Assembly (NCBI RefSeq): GCF_001890765.1
Contig: NZ_KV878783.1
Span: forward strand, 3,934,771 to 3,998,770
From: Spirulina major PCC 6313
GTDB lineage: Bacteria > Cyanobacteriota > Cyanobacteriia > Cyanobacteriales > Spirulinaceae
Length of the DNA stretch: 64,000 bases
Direction: 5' to 3'
The position numbers were made by a program, and so were the translations under genes. The notes under the pieces are model-generated. The model was not told the DNA's origin, ran no database searches, and saw only the letters and a list, made by a program, of their open reading frames with translations. Positions within the stretch are counted from its first letter, which is position 1. Each line of letters starts with the position of its first letter. Shown here piece by piece: positions 3,060-5,587 of this stretch.

Positions 3060-3881
3060 TTAGACCTCAAACAAGTCAGACCATTGATATTTTTGGATTG
3101 TATTTTGGGTGATGCCGGGTAGATCCGCAAGTTGATCAATAAAGGTGAAATCTCCCTGCTCTTGCCGTCGTTTTAAAATGGCTTCGGCTTTACTTTTTCC
3201 TAACCCCTTCACTTGGCATAATTCCACCGCTGTAGCGCAGTTGAGGTTGATTTTTGGGGTGGTTTTTGGGAGAGAAGGAGGACGAGAGAAAGAGGGTTTT
3301 GAGATCGATGTGTGGCCAGAGGTGGCCGGTTGAACAGTGGGTAAAAAAGGGATCAGTTTTGCAGCGATCGCACCCAACGCCCCATCATCTAACGTGATCG
3401 GCGGTGGGGTTGTCACCTGATCACGGATTGTCTCGATCGCTTGGCGGAGGTGCTGATTTTCGTCGCGTAGGGCGGCGAATTGAGCCGCGATCGTGCGCTC
3501 AAACTGGGCGAAACGGTCAGTCAGATCCGGTGCGGTGGGAGGGTCTGCAATCACGGCTTCAGGAGCAAGGACAGCCCCGCGAAAAAGCTGCACCTGTGTC
3601 AACAAAGCCGCCTCCTGTTCCGGCTCTAGAATAATCCCTTGCACCGTCTCGCCCCGCGCTAAATCTAATTCCTTCGCCCGCACCGCTGCATAATATCCCA
3701 AGTGATTATCCACCACCTCATAACTTTGCCAATCTAAACGCCGCAAAATCAGCGGATTAATTAACCCTTCCGCCTGCAAAATTGCCTCAGCCGCCTGATC
3801 AATGACCGCTGGAGAAAAGTGCGATCGCGCCACCGCCGACTGAATCCGCTTCACCCCCACCAAACTAATTTTAAGTTTCAT
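3060..3881 (-). CDS. ParB-like N-terminal domain protein with C-terminal helix-hairpin-helix motifs
   Basis: 273 residues. The N-terminal ~95 residues resemble the ParB/sulfiredoxin nuclease-like fold: a start strand (KISLVGVKRI), 'EGLINPLILRR' and 'YEVVDNHLGYYAAVRAKEL' in the position where ParB proteins carry the GERR-type CTP-binding motif, here not conserved. A middle segment (~120-165) is a probable coiled coil, followed by a Ser/Pro linker. Residues ~212-270 form two helix-hairpin-helix motifs (LCQVKGLGKSKAEAILKRR and DLPGITQNTIQKY) of the ComEA/RuvA type, which bind DNA non-specifically. The ATG directly follows the TAG stop of the ParA-fusion gene with no spacing, so the two are almost certainly co-translated. 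The HhH tail in place of a canonical ParB centromere-binding domain is unusual. Confidence 0.75.
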   Translation of the reverse strand: MKLKISLVGVKRIQSAVARSHFSPAVIDQAAEAILQAEGLINPLILRRLDWQSYEVVDNHLGYYAAVRAKELDLARGETVQGIILEPEQEAALLTQVQLFRGAVLAPEAVIADPPTAPDLTDRFAQFERTIAAQFAALRDENQHLRQAIETIRDQVTTPPPITLDDGALGAIAAKLIPFLPTVQPATSGHTSISKPSFSRPPSLPKTTPKINLNCATAVELCQVKGLGKSKAEAILKRRQEQGDFTFIDQLADLPGITQNTIQKYQWSDLFEV

Positions 3882-5330
3882 CTAAGCCAGTTTTCCCATC
3901 ACTTCAAGGGCTAATGTATTAAACTCCTGCGCTGATTTGGAATTCGGATCATAATCCAACACCGAACGCGGATCAGGCACTTCCCGCCCATCAATCACCC
4001 GCACTTGCTCCGCACATTTCGCCAACGGTTCCCGCTCAAAAATAATACTCTCCATCATTTTTAAGCCATAGCGTTCCGTCACCATCTGCATCCGTTTTGG
4101 CAAGGTCGAATTCACAAACCGCGCATTGGTCGAAACCTTATTCGCCAAAACCCCCAGCAAATAAATCGGAGCTCGGTTAATATTTTTGCGAAAACTATTC
4201 ACATCTTTTACTAACCCTTGCACATTCCGTAGTCCTTGGTTCGCAAAGGGTTTTAAATCCGACGGGATAATTAAATAATCCGATGAAATCAACGCATAAC
4301 GAGCAAACAAATTCAACGATGGCGGTGTATCAATCAACACCACATCATAGTTATCCTGCACATCTTGCAATTTTTGACTGAGAATAAATCGCGCATTTTC
4401 TTGACTATTTAACTCATTTTCTGCCCGCATCAAGTCAATATGAGCCGGAACTACATCAATGGGCGGTGTGCAAAAACTAAAGGCGGTTTGGGCTACGGCG
4501 GGAATCGGGTAGAGTTCTTCAGAACTTAACACCTGCTGGATATTATTTTCACTGAGGGTCTTACTCAGTGCATCTTCTTCATCGTCAAATTTTGCCAAGC
4601 CCACTGCAAAGGTTGTATTGGCTTGACTGTCGAGATCGATGACAAGAACGCGCTGCCCTTGCTTGCTCAACGCAGCCGCGAGATTAACAACGGTGGTGGT
4701 TTTACCCACGCCGCCTTTATTGTGATAGATGGCAATAGTGCGCATGGTTTTCGGGATCAATGAAGGGTGAGGATTGAGGGAAACAGAGTAGGTAAACGGT
4801 GGCAGAGGATGGGGGGGCGATCGCTTTTTTGGCGGTGGGGGTTTGGCGGGGGCGGGCGATCGCAATTTTCCCATCATCTGCATTTCATCCCGACCAATGA
4901 TGCTGCGAATTGTCCCCAATTGTGTCTGAACACTAGAACCGCGACATTCAAAAATACGGTGAATTTGGTCACCACTGCGGCTATAAATTTGGAATTCTTT
5001 GCCGTTGGTTAACACTCCGTAGGGAATCCAAAGCTGTGTTAAATAATAGGTTAATTTAGCAACAAACGGCCCTAAATGATGGCGGGGGCTTTTCGCTTCG
5101 ATCAGTAAACTGTAGGGAGACTGATCGTTCCATTGAATCGGTAAAGATTGGGCTGCAAAGATGAGAAAATCAAGGCGAATTTTACCGAGGGTCACCTCTT
5201 GATGCCACGCTTCGGGGGCATAACCCAAACTCGGTAGTAGGTATTGAACAATAAACTTGCTTTCAACTTCTGTCTCATTGCGACAGTTTTCTGGGTTAAA
5301 AAAGACGGGTAAACCGCCACGATAGGGCAT
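3882..5330 (-). CDS. ParA-family ATPase fused to an N-terminal PD-(D/E)XK (HsdR_N-like) domain
   Basis: 482 residues. Residues ~15-145 look like the N-terminal nuclease domain of type I restriction R subunits: E21/E23 in the first helix (NETEVESKF), D54 (KIRLDFLIF) and E78-A-K80 (LLIEAKSP), i.e. a complete E-D-ExK pattern, then the usual YLTQLWIPYGVLTNG core. A Pro/Lys-rich linker (~158-195) leads to a full ParA/MinD-type ATPase: deviant Walker A KGGVGKTT at 205-212, 'VLVIDLDSQANTT', and Walker B 'VVLIDTPPS'. An internal ATG at 4745 (residue 196) sits just before the ParA domain and could give ParA alone. It is followed directly by the ParB-like/HhH gene. ParA plus ParB-like suggests DNA segregation or positioning; the nuclease-like domain suggests DNA cleavage or DNA-end binding. 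The combined role is not known to me. Confidence 0.8.
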   Translation of the reverse strand: MPYRGGLPVFFNPENCRNETEVESKFIVQYLLPSLGYAPEAWHQEVTLGKIRLDFLIFAAQSLPIQWNDQSPYSLLIEAKSPRHHLGPFVAKLTYYLTQLWIPYGVLTNGKEFQIYSRSGDQIHRIFECRGSSVQTQLGTIRSIIGRDEMQMMGKLRSPAPAKPPPPKKRSPPHPLPPFTYSVSLNPHPSLIPKTMRTIAIYHNKGGVGKTTTVVNLAAALSKQGQRVLVIDLDSQANTTFAVGLAKFDDEEDALSKTLSENNIQQVLSSEELYPIPAVAQTAFSFCTPPIDVVPAHIDLMRAENELNSQENARFILSQKLQDVQDNYDVVLIDTPPSLNLFARYALISSDYLIIPSDLKPFANQGLRNVQGLVKDVNSFRKNINRAPIYLLGVLANKVSTNARFVNSTLPKRMQMVTERYGLKMMESIIFEREPLAKCAEQVRVIDGREVPDPRSVLDYDPNSKSAQEFNTLALEVMGKLA

Positions 5331-5587
5331 TGCTGTTCCACCATGGACAGGATGATGGGCTGATGGATAAACCCTAGGGTATCAGACCCGGAGCTGCGGA
5401 AAAAGCCGGAATGGTGCCCAGCGTTACAAATTGAGGCCAAAGGGGCAGGGTGGATACATCTGTACTGAATAACGCTGGGATAGCCATGGAGGTCGCAGGA
5501 GGATCGAGGAGGGATGAAGAGGCGATCGCACCCTGGGATTAATCACAAATTGAGCCTGGATTAATCCCTTCAATTCCCTTCAAGTAA

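Follow-up and report, generated by a model that had tools for sequence, protein, structure and literature searches.

ParA ATPases are movers of DNA and other cargo. In a 64,000-nucleotide stretch of the Spirulina major PCC 6313 genome (contig NZ_KV878783.1, positions 3,934,771 to 3,998,770; the whole stretch is hereafter called the window), gene A encodes a ParA fused to a predicted PD-(D/E)XK nuclease domain, and the adjacent gene B encodes a ParB-like protein, here called the adaptor. Several described systems resemble this pair in part. ParABS likewise places ParA beside a ParB-fold protein, but for A-B no parS site was found, the cytidine triphosphate (CTP) box and the helix-turn-helix (HTH) domain are absent, and a nuclease is added. 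The IncC1/IncC2-KorB system of plasmid RK2 has a ParA with two in-frame starts, an N-terminal domain that modulates DNA binding and a ParB-fold partner; the excerpt of the source does not describe the IncC1 N-terminal domain as a nuclease (PMC2666795). KorB is matched by the structural model of B; it is a plasmid ParB, whereas A-B sits on the chromosome and has no GERR box in B. The N-terminal domain of A has the predicted fold and the E-D-ExK site of HsdR and type IIG restriction enzymes, but A-B has no translocase, methylase or specificity subunit, and its ATPase is a ParA. McdAB-type ParA/MinD positioning systems also combine a chromosomal ParA with its own adaptor gene (excerpt of PMC10241942). 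The adaptor B differs in its ParB fold and DNA-binding tails, so that its cargo is probably DNA. ParB/Srx-fold domains also occur in phage polyvalent proteins of the DdrB type (excerpt of PMC5512222); a tail protein of Anabaena phage A-4L is alike in carrying a ParB-like domain, which in this case bears the signature of B. No description of a nuclease-ParA fusion was found among titles and abstract openings in the full-text literature, while subscription papers and preprints might hold one; the excerpts of PMC5512222, PMC7159879 and PMC10241942 do not describe it.

Genes A and B lie on the minus strand of contig C2 (4.99 Mb) of a 5.05-Mb genome in two contigs, the other of which (C1) measures 55 kb by subtraction. 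As the original prediction stated, the 482-residue product of A joins a PD-(D/E)XK domain to ParA, and B follows directly, its ATG abutting the stop codon of A with a gap of zero on the same strand; both open reading frames (ORFs) lie at the positions given there. The anatomy of this nuclease-ParA and adaptor pair is well supported by sequence comparison. Its features are as follows.

3882..5330, minus strand: gene A, nuclease-ParA fusion, 482 residues; an ORF with PF13588 (below cut-off) and AAA_31 matches, one of 70 distinct type-1 fusions compared
4881..5300, minus strand: predicted PD-(D/E)XK (HsdR_N-like) domain, A residues 11-150
5274..5276, minus strand: E19, first acidic active-site residue
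5169..5171, minus strand: D54, active site
5091..5099, minus strand: E78-A79-K80, the ExK motif
4746..4880, minus strand: variable linker, A residues 151-195
4743..4745, minus strand: internal in-frame ATG, A residue 196, proposed second start for ParA alone
3885..4745, minus strand: ParA ATPase, A residues 196-482
4695..4718, minus strand: deviant Walker A motif KGGVGKTT, A residues 205-212
3060..3881, minus strand: gene B, adaptor, 273 residues; an ORF
3564..3881, minus strand: ParB_N-fold domain, B residues 1-106
3684..3710, minus strand: altered CTP box DNHLGYYAA, B residues 58-66
3411..3524, minus strand: long helix, likely coiled coil, predicted in the AlphaFold2 model, B residues 120-157
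3090..3257, minus strand: double helix-hairpin-helix (HhH), B residues 209-264

The nuclease-ParA fusion and its relatives

Relatives of A were sorted into three fusion classes. The GTDB collection yielded 66 loci with a relative of A, of which 64 are titled cyanobacteria or cyanobacterial metagenome-assembled genomes (MAGs), one is a Thiotrichaceae MAG and one is Hyphomicrobium (ParA only). In the Thiotrichaceae MAG (locus L114), the type-1 pair sits within the cyanobacterial tree, by transfer or contamination. Conserved adjacency of the two proteins was found in cyanobacterial genomes: blastp matches B in 90 of 95 type-1 loci, window included, and an ORF of at least 100 residues begins within 400 bases downstream in 93 of the 95. 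The two loci with no such ORF are L126, in which A has a broken frame, and L128, which lies at the end of its contig. An ORF of at least 100 residues, next to the fusion and on the same strand, accompanies 67 of 70 type-1 fusions (gap of at most 60 bases), 12/13 of type 2 and 13/13 of type 3. Flanking genes differ from clade to clade, and with such unlike neighbourhoods the A-B pair itself is the conserved unit. Type 2 comprises 13 loci encoding 448-522 residues, 27-32% identical to A by blastp. Type 3 comprises 13 loci encoding 444-469 residues, more distant than type 2 and each with its own adaptor (L159-L161, L163-L171, L174); some of these fusions lie on small contigs (C5 and C10 of genome G040) that are possibly plasmids. 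A further 468-residue fusion (L152) has no close likeness to types 1-3. The fusions tested keep both E-D-ExK and KGGVGKT.

The N-terminal domain of A is a well-supported HsdR/type IIG-like PD-(D/E)XK nuclease domain with an intact site, putatively able to cleave DNA. Residues E19, D54, E78 and K80 are invariant across 51 aligned N-domains, which cover 39 of 40 non-redundant type-1 rows (all but L103, which lies at a contig end) and 12 of 13 type-2 rows (all but L141, which resembles L142). The site proposed originally thus held for D54, E78 and K80, whereas the first acid is E19 and not E21 or E23; E23 is kept in at least 90% and E21 is constant in type 1 only. Type-2 N-domains share just 22-28% identity with that of the window, with the active site kept in 12/12 aligned. 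The site is also retained in all 70 distinct type-1 fusions, and the E..D..ExK pattern occurs in 13/13 of type 3; the homologues compared thus keep the catalytic residues.

The Pfam family PF13588 (HSDR_N_2) matches residues 26-118 of A with an E-value of 2.9e-4 and 21.3 bits against a curated cut-off of 25, a score that is a detection threshold and no biological feature. Residues 1-165 alone reach 24.3 bits, relatives in L167 (28.2) and L147 (26.9) pass the cut-off, and the family matches all 51 aligned N-domains at E <= 0.1. The AlphaFold2 model of residues 1-165 has a mean pLDDT (predicted local distance difference test score) of 88.6 and a helix-strand-strand-strand-helix-strand core. Compared by VIA-align, it matches HsdR (3h1t) with Z 11.4 and a root-mean-square deviation (rmsd) of 3.9 over 126 aligned residues, and the type IIG enzymes DrdV (Z 10.5) and BpuSI (Z 10.2). 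The PD-(D/E)XK core expected in residues 1-150 by comparison with HsdR_N is thus present in the prediction. Foldseek alone returned nothing at E <= 0.001 for this model, the best match (4.4e-3) being a restriction endonuclease domain. A chance or decayed N-domain is ruled out by the invariant site, the PF13588 matches and the predicted fold. Only ParA follows the N-domain in A, with no superfamily 2 (SF2) translocase, and HsdM and HsdS families had no match among four further neighbours scanned. Among phage records, the N-domain of the window matches 12 halovirus records only (E <= 0.001), where the matching proteins carry the annotation DNA methylase or type IIG enzyme; a scan of IMG/VR gave two weak matches.

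The ParA part is assigned by AAA_31 (residues 196-379, E 5.9e-54) and by sequence matches to ParA/Soj structures. KGGVGKT is kept in 70/70 type-1, 13/13 type-2 and 13/13 type-3 fusions, and Walker B reads D[TS]P[PA] in 70/70 of type 1, DPPP or DAPP in 13/13 of type 2 and D.P in 12/13 of type 3. The linker before it varies; in alignment columns 184-195 the commonest residue, gaps aside, occurs in at most 34 of 71 rows. Despite this unconserved linker, the codon at which a free-standing ParA begins is a start codon in all 71 distinct type-1 rows (ATG in 68, GTG in 3); these rows include L031, a helicase-ParA fusion, and the nuclease fusions proper number 70. All three valine rows use GTG (15% of the valine codons of these genes), and two of the three (L009 and L069) have similar linkers and possibly represent one event. 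Type-2 fusions have ATG at this position in 12/13 and ATT in 1/13. Type 3 has ATG in 0/13 and TTG in 2, so methionine is no requirement of the fold. Since every type-1 fusion has a start codon exactly at the ParA boundary, we propose two products: gene A probably makes, from one reading frame, both the nuclease-ParA and ParA alone.

Ribosome-binding signals bear on this proposal in both directions. A word resembling a Shine-Dalgarno (SD) sequence precedes the internal start in 36 of the 71 type-1 rows, compared with 2500 of 29330 codons (9%) overall, 16 of 392 other internal methionines (4%) and, at the gene starts themselves, 33 of 70 for A and 38 of 66 for B. After similar upstream stretches are collapsed, the count is 12/35 (binomial P about 2e-5). 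Weighing against a second start, the window's own internal ATG has no SD-like sequence before it, and such words are commoner still at two conserved coding spots (71/71 near +12 and 66-67/71 near +31 codons) and are found at -22 in 22/71. The original prediction had also raised the internal ATG at 4745 as a rival to the fusion. Translation from that ATG only was rejected, as the strict conservation of the N-domain favours a full-length protein, and the ATG is probably a second start.

The nuclease appears to have been lost repeatedly rather than gained. In a midpoint-rooted tree of 79 ParA domains (near-copies above 90% and ORFs of 300-430 residues left out), the free-standing form, represented by 13 rows of which L154 and L155 are long branches, needs five changes, and at least three are forced by well-supported branches. 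Loss is preferred because type 2, the outside group, is also fused. Phormidium tenue (L117) retains B and a ParA that shares 98% identity with the ParA of a Pseudanabaena fusion, but has lost most of the nuclease part. In genome G019 the fusion and B are directly preceded by a separate gene for ParA alone (81% identity), and G011 has a type-2 fusion with no adjacent adaptor and a free-standing type-1 ParA-B pair elsewhere. A helicase is split in G115 (L153, 5274-8474): its C-terminal half (AAA_12) is fused to ParA, next to B, and its N-terminal half (AAA_11) is encoded by the ORF before, which also shows weak DUF559/MTES_1575 nuclease matches. A profile of the N-domain found no separate nuclease gene near free-standing ParA in 14 loci (L027, L032, L033, L035, L115, L117-L123, L131, L132; stretches of 3.5-13 kb). 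Upstream of free-standing ParA lie genes of varied kinds (GmrSD_N in L120, NADAR in L119, Crr6 in L132, a Na/Ca exchanger in L027, PhoD-like in L032), with no family match upstream in L122, L118 and L035. The GmrSD_N (type IV restriction) gene of L120 (4185-5993) lies 25 bases upstream of its nuclease-less ParA-B pair.

Strong N-domain matches (E < 1e-33) were found in 48 of 244 genomes, 33 of type 1 and 15 of type 2, and none of the 48 holds both types or two strong copies, at most 15 candidates per genome having been scored. An overlap test gives P 0.0006-0.0026 for assumed totals of 90-105 genomes, with phylogeny ignored. Weaker matches are type 3 and other proteins, and type 3 co-occurs with type 1 (G040, G085). 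Within genus g11 the distribution is patchy: type 1 is present in G066 and G121, and no type-1 or type-2 copy in G044, G058, G097, G143 and G149. A distant second ParA gene of about 295-315 residues lies divergently near type-1 or type-2 fusions in L068, L070, L107, L143 and L148; the gene beyond it in several Nostocales we take to be ileS.

The adaptor and viral copies of its first domain

The structural model of B matches ParB, Noc, KorB and PadC over the first 106 residues (ParB 7bnk: Z 12.1, rmsd 2.9, 93 aligned) and ComEA over residues 212-270. ParB_N matches residues 17-69 of the window's B with an E-value of 0.0016 and 18.9 bits against a cut-off of 26.3, and it matches 52 of 55 aligned members (of 60) at E <= 0.1. 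Where GERRxR would be expected, B reads NHLGYY, and its box DNHLGYYAA aligns to GERRYRAA of Spo0J. The motif G[ED]R[RK] is absent from the first 110 residues of all 90 distinct B proteins, and a GERR-type box is likewise lacking in 11 aligned type-2 adaptors (several of which read YGADW there) and 12 type-3 adaptors. The ParB-type N-domain with an altered CTP motif, as first described, is thereby confirmed. In the place of a central HTH for parS, the window model shows the long helix and then the HhH region, and no HTH family is among the matches of the window's B.

The two HhH motifs reported earlier are real in the window (HHH_3, E 1.8e-14; ComEA 8dss, Z 7.4, 37% identity over 59 residues) and are not a constant of the family: some relatives have Rho_N/SAP-type or other tails instead. 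HhH, Rho_N and SAP tails are general DNA binders. Eleven of the 13 type-3 neighbours have a Rho_N/SAP-like end by eye, and the type-3 adaptor of L167 matches Rho_N (E 7.7e-6) and weakly ParB_N (E 0.0054). From these sequences, B would bind DNA through an exchangeable tail and form no CTP-loaded clamp on parS.

The best PDB match of the B profile is a tail protein and no ParB: 9k3a, ORF27L of phage A-4L (E 7.5e-10). In the phage genome (L177, 7001-7207) the ParB-like domain with the adaptor signature lies within a 1717-residue virion protein, and this stretch matches no Pfam family at E <= 0.05. A 56-kb IMG/VR contig (L176, 5001-5306) encodes a free 101-residue B N-domain, 64% identical to that of Anabaena lutea, which stops at the domain boundary, the long helix and tail being absent. 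A promoter-like stretch precedes its gene and is found again in front of small genes nearby. A 74-kb viral contig (L179, 1281-1613) encodes a 110-residue solo B N-domain that likewise lacks long helix and tail and shares 35-46% identity with those compared. The 56-kb contig has endolysin and thymidylate synthase families; on the 74-kb contig a baseplate family matches weakly, beside a phage family of unknown function. Both contigs were found by pattern-limited scans of IMG/VR, two further scans of which gave no third. AAA_31 had no match in either contig or in A-4L, records that are possibly fragments, with the control positive in 14/14 genomes. A protein search for ParA in phage records, run without a positive control, found none, and tblastn with two B proteins gave no match in phage records. 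Judged by sequence, the solo adaptor domains look as decoys would, and hitch-hiking on host ParA is the main alternative.

Function of the pair

On the favoured reading, A-B would be a ParA-type system of the chromosome with DNA as its cargo. Gene A would yield the nuclease-ParA and, from the internal start, ParA alone; both would dimerise in the ATP-bound state and cover the nucleoid, where a nuclease would arm just a fraction of the bound subunits. B would bind DNA by its exchangeable tail, with no CTP-loaded parS clamp, and engage ParA by its ParB-fold domain. Where B gathers on target DNA, ParA would accumulate and cycle, and the attached PD-(D/E)XK domain would cut there. The likeliest use would be surveillance against phage or other incoming DNA, with the phage copies of the first domain of B as decoys. 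Domain make-up, motifs, gene coupling, the internal start codon, presence or absence of the nuclease and the viral B domains belong to the sequences themselves; the two products, the A-B contact, the cutting, its target and the defence role we infer from them. A ParA-delivered nuclease acting on B-marked DNA through two products of A, most likely against phage or other foreign DNA, is a tentative reading that falls somewhat short of probable. The wider proposal of a new cyanobacterial immune class, a nucleoid-patrolling nuclease with a two-start ParA and a CTP-independent ParB-fold adaptor, countered by phage decoys that are free or in the virion, is possible and rather doubtful. Both are held down by the lack of a consistent PADLOC partner, the lack of a known-system match beyond the ATPase and the persistence of ParA-B where the nuclease is gone.

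Several results weigh against a delivered antiviral nuclease. PADLOC matches A only in short ATPase stretches of PDC-M28B and mad8, and B not at all. At E <= 1e-15 it finds 92 families among 81 near genes and 121 among 81 far genes, the two sets (of 116 near and 117 far genes) having been hand-picked from the first 100 of each; this comparison of family lists is no enrichment test. Among the matches listed, those recurring near A-B are SspH/mad8-like (three members) and PD_DExK (two), and none recurs in the far set. Nuclease-less lineages retain ParA and B, so the pair is of use even without cutting. Type-2 adaptors stand further from ParB, as ParB_N reaches E <= 0.1 in just 4 of 12 aligned rows, that of L152 included. 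Only two solo-domain contigs are known from the scans, with no host assigned and possibly fragments, and a phage might use the domain to ride on host ParA instead of blocking it. Near A-B in L068, an SspH/mad8-matching gene occupies 4613-5479; among ten type-2 neighbours (PADLOC E <= 0.001), L147 has an HEC-01A-like neighbour and L145 a PDC-M40A match. Of the original prediction, the fusion, the coupling, the altered CTP box and the DNA-binding tail stood; among the joint functions it suggested (defence, plasmid or element maintenance, or end processing), defence found no clear sign in the neighbouring genes. Defence-island association is unsupported, the near genes having no consistent partner in the PADLOC comparison.

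Chromosome maintenance accounts for part of the same evidence. ParA and B would space or segregate polyploid chromosomes, and the nuclease would trim or resolve entangled or broken DNA. When the genome was searched with ParB_N, the single match fell on C1, not C2, and no parS-like site with 0-1 mismatch was found on C2 (at <= 3 mismatches, 13 sites vs 23 in the reversed control). C2, by its size the chromosome, has neither canonical ParB nor parS, and A-B would be a home-grown substitute. Retention of ParA-B in several lineages that lack the nuclease, and tails that are general DNA binders, also fit. However, the patchy presence in genus g11 argues against a core function, parS at <= 1 mismatch occurs in just 14 of 244 cyanobacterial genomes with or without A-B, and the solo B domains on viral contigs are left unexplained. 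We regard maintenance as possible and somewhat unlikely.

A nuclease-fold module that binds DNA and does not cut, modulating dimerisation and DNA binding like the N-termini of IncC1 and long plasmid ParA proteins, would agree with the tolerated nuclease loss and has a real two-start precedent in IncC1/IncC2 (excerpt of PMC2666795). Binding alone would not require that E, D, E and K stay unchanged in 51/51 N-domains of types 1-2 and the same pattern in 13/13 of type 3, and such a module is unlikely. An addiction role, in which the nuclease attacks the chromosome or rivals upon loss of A-B and so stabilises its own locus, fits the single strong type-1 or type-2 copy per genome and the natural copy in L117 that kept ParA and B after most of the nuclease was deleted. 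It is improbable: free-standing ParA-B is long-lived (a seven-row clade), no plasmid record holds the fusion and no antidote-like gene was seen besides B. A plasmid origin of type 1 was itself rejected, as 0 of 911 matching plasmid records match over 80% of A; in matching plasmid records only the HhH tail region of B is found (8/8).

A ParA whose restriction-type nuclease site is intact would both move its cargo and cut. If a ParA-delivered nuclease is the correct reading, it would be aimed inside the cell without sequence recognition, and the second start may have been kept so that unarmed subunits dilute the armed ones. Should the viral adaptor domains be decoys, A-B could be put to the test as a defence system. 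If the pair serves chromosome upkeep, it would offer a handle on how polyploid cyanobacteria lacking parS manage their chromosomes.

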